From: an uncultured Phascolarctobacterium sp. | GTDB taxonomy: Bacteria > Bacillota > Negativicutes > Acidaminococcales > Acidaminococcaceae | Assembly (NCBI GenBank): GCA_947630795.1 | Contig: CANRJC010000017.1 | Coordinates: 1-33,492, forward strand | Length of the DNA stretch: 33,492 nucleotides | Direction of reading: 5' to 3' | Part shown: one piece after another, positions 32,800 to 33,492 of the stretch | Numbering within the stretch: position 1 is the stretch's first letter | Layout of the letters: the number at the start of each line of letters is the position of its first letter | Made by a program: the position numbers and the translations under genes | The notes under the pieces: model-generated | Told to the model about the DNA's origin: nothing | The model's input: only the letters and a program-made list of their open reading frames with translations | The model's database searches: none

Positions 32800-33492
32800 C
32801 TAGCTCTCTTTTTTCGAAAAGGTCAACAGCCTGTCTCTGTAAAATTCATACTGCTTCTTGCGGGCTTCTATCTCCGCCGGCAAGCCGGCGCTCAAGTCGT
32901 TGCAGAGCCTGTCGAAACGATCGAGGATGGAAACGATGCGTTCTTGCTCTTTAAGGGAAGGCAGACAAAACTCATATTTCATGATAACTGCTTTATCTCC
33001 TCTGGGCATTTTGGCGCCCTTGGCACTGTTGTTGCTGTAACTGAAAAATTTATCTGATGAAAGTACGTAGTACAAATAACTTGGACTGACGAACTTCTTG
33101 TCCATACATCTAACGACCAACACATCCCCATTTGTTCCGCCATCGTTGTCTGCTTTCCATATCTTCTTTAGATAAGGGCGAATATTACCAATCAGTATAT
33201 CTCCATGAGTATACCTGATGCCATTCCCATCGGTCGGTACCTTTGCGGCATTTTTTCTTCCTTCTTTATCCTGCAGAAGATTTTCAACACTTGTATAATT
33301 CTCTGTGGTTATGTTGTTATAACTTATTCTCTCGTTAGGATAGAAAGCGATATCCCCCAACTCTACCATCACGTACCCGAACACGTATTGTAAAAGTTTG
33401 ATCAGATCATCATGCTCTGCTTGCTTGCTTGCTTGCTTGCTTGCTTGCTTGCTTGCTTGCTTGCTTGCTTGCTTGCTTGCTTGCTTGCTTGC
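32800..33492 (-). CDS. hsdS: Type I restriction specificity subunit, C-terminal half (runs off window)
   Basis: The frame is open to the window edge, giving 230 visible residues. The first 25 come from the tetranucleotide repeat and read Ser-Lys-Gln-Ala over and over; then AEHDDLIKLLQYVFGY leads into the second target-recognition domain (MVELGDIAFYPNERISYNN, NIRPYLKKIWKADNDGG, SPSYLYYVLSSDKFF). The conserved helix follows: LPSLKEQERIVSILDRFDRLCNDLSAGLPAEIEARKKQYEFYRDRLLTF. The GTG at 33384 is not the true start; the first recognition domain and start must lie to the right. HsdS sets the DNA sequence methylated and cut by the complex. Confidence 0.93.
   Translation of the reverse strand, partial: ASKQASKQASKQASKQASKQASKQAEHDDLIKLLQYVFGYVMVELGDIAFYPNERISYNNITTENYTSVENLLQDKEGRKNAAKVPTDGNGIRYTHGDILIGNIRPYLKKIWKADNDGGTNGDVLVVRCMDKKFVSPSYLYYVLSSDKFFSYSNNSAKGAKMPRGDKAVIMKYEFCLPSLKEQERIVSILDRFDRLCNDLSAGLPAEIEARKKQYEFYRDRLLTFSKKES
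33418..33492. repeat. Tetranucleotide (TTGC/GCAA) microsatellite in hsdS
   Basis: At least 18 perfect copies of TTGC (33421-33492), preceded by TGC, run to the window edge. On the coding strand they read as an endless Ser-Lys-Gln-Ala peptide, and no frame through the repeat has a stop. Just after the repeat both other frames meet TGA within a few codons. Confidence 0.97.

Follow-up and report, generated by a model that had tools for sequence, protein, structure and literature searches.

The stretch of DNA examined here (the window) is the whole 33,492-nt contig CANRJC010000017.1 (C17) of an uncultured Phascolarctobacterium sp. genome (G000), and its minus strand encodes the downstream part of a type I restriction-modification operon that is entered through a tandem array of the tetranucleotide GCAA. 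The tract is perfect over 75 nt (18.75 units; 33418–33492, minus strand) and this length is a lower bound, because the contig ends inside the repeat. Whichever frame is read, the tract encodes (SKQA)n. A linker (EHDDLIKLLQYVFGYV; 33370–33417, minus strand), which is conserved in a relative from the genus and can still be recognised in loci from Clostridia, connects the tract to the third specificity half of the system (TRD3; 32863–33366, minus strand), which is recognised by Pfam as PF01420 Methylase_S (E = 2.5e-12) and matches the C-terminal half of the EcoR124II HsdS (7bst_A). The open frame ends with a conserved helix terminating in YRDRLLTFSKKES. This third conserved helix (CR3, NDLSAGLPAEIEARKKQYEFYRDRLLTF; 32818–32967, minus strand) is nearer to the C-terminal-type CR2 (58–70%) than to the TAEL-type CR1 (48–62%), and CR2 was the closer of the two in all nine loci compared, narrowly so in locus L043. 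The stop codon at 32800–32802 (minus strand) closes the third half and would equally close a fusion carrying three target-recognition domains (TRDs). Lying 30 nt past the third half, hsdR (29548–32769, minus strand) encodes an EcoR124-type subunit of 1073 aa and is preceded by a strong Shine-Dalgarno sequence, AAGGAGGAAAAACAATG.

The locus is a type IC (EcoR124-like) restriction-modification system composed of hsdM, hsdS and hsdR. The best PDB matches for all three subunits are to EcoR124II (M, E = 5e-185; R, E = 5e-247; S, E = 4e-38), the Pfam family EcoR124_C is found in the restriction system, and the central conserved region carries the TAEL-type tetra-amino-acid repeat that is a trait of type IC. 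Inversion-type switching was considered and rejected, as there is no inverted hsdS copy; the third half is directly oriented and no other close hsdS copy occurs in the genome. A weak specificity-subunit-like match elsewhere (G000:C2:110181-110579; 28% identity, within a 428-aa open frame) probably belongs to another type I system.

Arrays of five GCAA units occur at two sites only in the genome, the end of C17 and the start of a second contig (C47); both arrays lie on one strand, in an arrangement that follows the order of the operon. Among 59 genomes of the family the five-unit array is present in one, and the reversed-pattern control returned no matches; chance does not account for the tract. 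The window additionally contains repeats of other kinds. Tandem heptamers (AACTCCA / ACTCCAC) occur at 250–264, 27454–27474, 28566–28594 and 29059–29072, and the 13-mer ACTCCACACTCCA has 28 matches on eight contigs of the genome (reversed control, 0). Heptamer-like runs are also visible in the same-genus genome, and together these look like a dispersed heptameric repeat family. At 18759–18880, a 27-bp tandem repeat rich in AAGAAAAAAAC forms a lysine-rich stretch of the open frame at 18729–20702 (plus strand).

The upstream part of the operon is found on C47 (L024; 3,785 nt), which starts in 63 nt of GCAA (L024:1–63) on the same strand as the window tract and holds hsdM as well as a complete hsdS whose frame continues into the repeat. 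In the C47 HsdS, Pfam recognises two Methylase_S domains; both of the conserved helices are present, with a TAEL-type repeat in the first helix (L024:719–755; 12-bp unit, 3.1 copies; ELTAELTAELTARKKQY), and the GCAA tract follows the C-terminal helix of this full two-TRD protein. Because the C47 hsdS already has two TRDs, the window encodes a third half-S and not a second. The two contigs are presumably adjacent, and the operon seems to have been split in assembly by the GCAA tract itself. When C17 and C47 are joined in silico, one phase in three yields an HsdS of ~640 aa with three TRDs, and the remaining two yield an HsdS of ~430–460 aa with two TRDs and a short SKQA tail, since both other frames meet a TGA no more than 3–5 codons past the tract at every permitted unit number. 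The simple repeat thus lies inside the hsdS reading frame and its length, tabulated as the frame for each unit number, sets the HsdS product: two TRDs with the tract out of frame and three with it in frame.

Several claims of the first-pass annotation, which was made from the window sequence, can be judged against this reconstruction. Its description of at least 18 perfect GCAA units coding for SKQA holds (75 nt, 18.75 units, minus strand), as does its prediction that changes of one or two units lead to an early TGA. Conversely, it had placed the first half of HsdS outside the window and the second TRD within it, and had expected a half-length HsdS whenever the tract is out of frame; C47 holds the complete two-TRD hsdS, the window holds the third half, and the out-of-frame product is the two-TRD protein of ~430–460 aa. 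Its proposal of several product classes survives insofar as HsdS forms are switched by tract length, though the forms at this locus are two-TRD and three-TRD proteins and no half-subunit is expected.

A relative from the same genus, belonging to another species (G001; L065/L086), carries the operon on one contig, in the order hsdM, two-TRD hsdS, GCAA, third half and hsdR. Its tract is 21 nt long, compared with at least 75 nt in the window, and its third half is out of frame. The two systems are 97.5% identical in HsdM and 97.2% in HsdR, and the conserved helices and linkers are ~90–100% identical, with ~95–100% for the helices and near-identity of the linkers on both sides of the tract. All three TRDs, by contrast with this retained framework of helices and linkers, are unrelated in sequence, so that slot 3 is exchanged in the same manner as slots 1 and 2.

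The arrangement recurs well beyond the genus. When ~85,000 species genomes were scanned for a conserved helix with three GCAA units no more than 30 nt beyond it, 55 loci were obtained, each of which reads as an hsdS conserved helix plus SKQA. By record name these belong to Pseudomonadota, Bacillota, Fibrobacterota, Ureaplasma, Chloroflexota, Gemmatimonadota, Omnitrophota and Pontiellaceae, with the taxonomic labels of metagenome-assembled genomes accepted as recorded. With a profile derived from the halves that follow the tract, one half was counted upstream of the tract in ~43 of the 55 loci and two halves in 12, the latter from Bacillota, Fibrobacter and Ureaplasma. An additional three-half locus with 15.5 GCAA units lies on a 1.27-Mb contig (G320, L127), and the junction is also present on six IMG/VR contigs. 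In both the one-half-upstream and the two-half-upstream class, the tract stands before the last half. Two loci, L043 and L052, encode intact, naturally in-frame proteins with three Methylase_S stretches by Pfam, and in the out-of-frame loci these stretches are split 2+1. Masked bases at the tract leave the frames of L055 and L079 uncertain.

Two further observations came from the loci in this collection. Ureaplasma sp. ES3154-GEN has two hsdS loci (L046 and L075), each with a 32-nt GCAA tract and a downstream half truncated at 84 aa. In a Veillonellaceae locus (L063, JALELM010000008.1), a GGGGGG run at 6550–6580 lies between TRD1 and TRD2 where the second half leaves frame, and a 38-nt GCAA tract precedes the third half; this one hsdS possibly holds two independent slippage switches.

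Several observations bear on whether the tract acts as a switch. Across 53 loci the tract is in frame in 22 and in the two other frames in 17 and 14, compatible with a random third (p = 0.24). Two loci from different assemblies, L071 and L078, each with two halves in all, match at every one of the 1,422 nt that they share before the repeat and of the 749 nt after it, yet carry tracts of 57 and 41 nt in differing frames. This pair is direct natural evidence of slippage. For the organism of the window itself we infer slippage. A search for within-species tract variation at the Proteobacterial junction returned no match in PLSDB plasmids or complete E. coli genomes. Both wrong frames encounter stops soon past the tract, in most loci sooner than elsewhere in the same genes, although common descent of the Proteobacterial loci weakens this comparison. 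Combined with the conserved open third half, the L071/L078 lengths and the near-random frames lend good support to the first-pass view that a type I hsdS is switched here by slippage.

The locus is likely to be a phase-variable type IC operon, hsdM – hsdS (TRD1, TRD2) – (GCAA)n – third half-S (TRD3) – hsdR, that acts as a specificity switch. Slipped-strand mispairing would alter the GCAA unit number n. One of the three phases would have the third half read within HsdS, to give the three-TRD protein of ~640 aa, and in the two others translation would end a few codons past the tract to give the normal two-TRD HsdS with its short SKQA tail. Pairing in type IC HsdS takes place between the first helix and the C-terminal one. 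Since CR3 belongs to the latter type, TRD3 would compete with TRD2 for pairing with TRD1. The fused state may then add or substitute a second recognition sequence (TRD1/TRD3, and possibly TRD2/TRD3), while the unfused state would keep TRD1/TRD2 recognition; a switch of specificity would follow from this, and not one that turns the enzyme on and off. Such alternative pairing has a precedent in the three-TRD HsdS Hpy99XV (PMC3936762); at this locus both the TRD pairing and the effect of fusion on the methylome are inferred. A single-sequence structure prediction for the three-TRD protein of L043 had a pLDDT of 34 and was uninformative on the pairing.

An alternative role for the third half would be that of a silent cassette that is never translated and donates sequence to slots 1 and 2 by recombination, the tract being an accidental by-product. 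The swapping of TRDs in all slots between the two same-genus genomes would suit such a donor, and inverting systems often hold silent hsdS cassettes (PMC7394358). However, all readable downstream halves, with the exception of those of Ureaplasma, remain open directly from the tract even when they are out of frame, and for 31 out-of-frame halves taken together base composition predicts a chance total of ~0.02 open frames. Purifying selection is seen between two out-of-frame third halves from Fibrobacter, with a dN of 0.048 and a dS of 0.468 (dN/dS ~0.10, in one species pair), and these are probably translated often enough for selection to act. The intact in-frame fusions of L043 and L052, together with a third helix whose subtype differs from that of helix 2, so that slot 2 has not simply been copied, also speak against a cassette, and we regard this explanation as unlikely.

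Translation of the third half on its own, by re-initiation past the out-of-frame stop, would instead supply a half-S that acts in trans. Stop codons of the other frames do lie near the start of the third half, and BlihIA is an example of a system in which a full HsdS is accompanied by a one-TRD HsdS (PMC12429846). Yet neither this genome nor the same-genus relative has a Shine-Dalgarno-linked start heading the third half, and the first in-frame starts after the tract are GTG codons within the conserved linker, 9–15 codons in. Since the third half lacks such a start, unlike hsdR with its clear and strong one, expression by fusion is most likely, and independent translation appears quite improbable.

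The first-pass reading, in which the tract joins TRD1 and TRD2 of a two-TRD HsdS, yields a half-length protein when out of frame and tunes the spacer through in-frame changes, does suit most of the related loci elsewhere: its placement of the tract between TRD1 and TRD2, with a half-S out of frame, fails at this locus and describes ~43 of the 55. It also has a precedent in NgoAV (PMC9577141). Nonetheless, two complete halves precede the tract both in C47 and in the same-genus operon, and this reading is already refuted provided that C47 adjoins C17, leaving it a very small probability. The EcoR124-type TAEL repeat of 12 bp tunes the spacing. At this locus that element is separate, lying in helix 1 on C47, whereas the SKQA repeats lie beyond the second helix; the first-pass suggestion that in-frame 12-bp changes of the GCAA tract tune the spacer, so that one repeat would combine tuning with phase switching, is thus unsupported. 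An assembly artefact, in which C17 and C47 are unrelated and share merely low-complexity ends, has in its favour that this assembly offers no read-through of the junction, but it is highly improbable given that the genome has no further GCAA tract, that the two parts fall on one strand in the order hsdM-hsdS / half-S-hsdR, and that in the same-genus relative a single contig, whose linkers match, holds the complete operon.

Read as a slippage-driven specificity switch, the locus shares features with several known systems. NgoAV of Neisseria gonorrhoeae has a polyG tract between hsdS1 and hsdS2 (PMC9577141), and slippage in that simple repeat joins or parts a downstream half-S, which changes the sequence recognised without inactivating the enzyme; the same is predicted here. 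The NgoAV repeat is G and its upstream product is a half-S with one TRD, fusion giving a two-TRD protein; here the repeat is GCAA, an HsdS complete with two TRDs is already made from the upstream part, and fusion would bring the number of TRDs to three. Hpy99XV (JHP1422) of Helicobacter pylori is an HsdS with three consecutive TRDs, as in the fused phase here, that methylates two sequences through alternative TRD pairing (PMC3936762), but no simple-repeat switch is described for it and its TRD2 and TRD3 are identical, whereas all three TRDs differ at this locus. A three-TRD HsdS is also known from M. agalactiae (MAGa6310; PMC3077401). Among solved structures, the HsdM, HsdR and HsdS of this system are nearest to EcoR124II, and EcoR124I/II (PDB 7bst) shares the TAEL-type 12-bp repeat in helix 1, yet its HsdS has two TRDs and neither a GCAA tract nor a third half. 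Simple repeats are reported for 7.9% of REBASE hsdS genes (PMC7394358), and PMC12429846 cites Atack et al. 2020 for HsdS proteins with three TRDs.

What this analysis adds is the reconstruction of the locus, the observation that the tract stands before the last half in both classes, the two classes of locus and the evidence for slippage and selection. HsdS proteins switched by simple sequence repeats (SSRs) and three-TRD HsdS proteins are each known, and this locus would combine both. The survey of SSR-containing hsdS genes in REBASE by Atack et al. 2020 (FASEB J) may already include three-TRD GCAA loci.

More broadly, and tentatively, the GCAA junction, which recurs in several phyla just ahead of the final half of type IC HsdS, could serve as a hypermutable means of expanding specificity, with TRD slots that can each be exchanged independently. 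In a subset of loci it would toggle a third TRD on a complete HsdS, and a single slippage event would take the cell from one methylation motif to two or more while restriction is retained. A three-TRD HsdS raises the structural question of which two TRDs bind DNA, and whether helix type decides between them. The junction also provides a simple sequence signature for locating such switches, and repeat-switched loci are probably undercounted because long GCAA tracts may break short-read assemblies, as seemingly occurred here. Should the fused state add a motif, a clonal population would hold mixed methylomes and mixed barriers to phage while a working restriction system is always kept.
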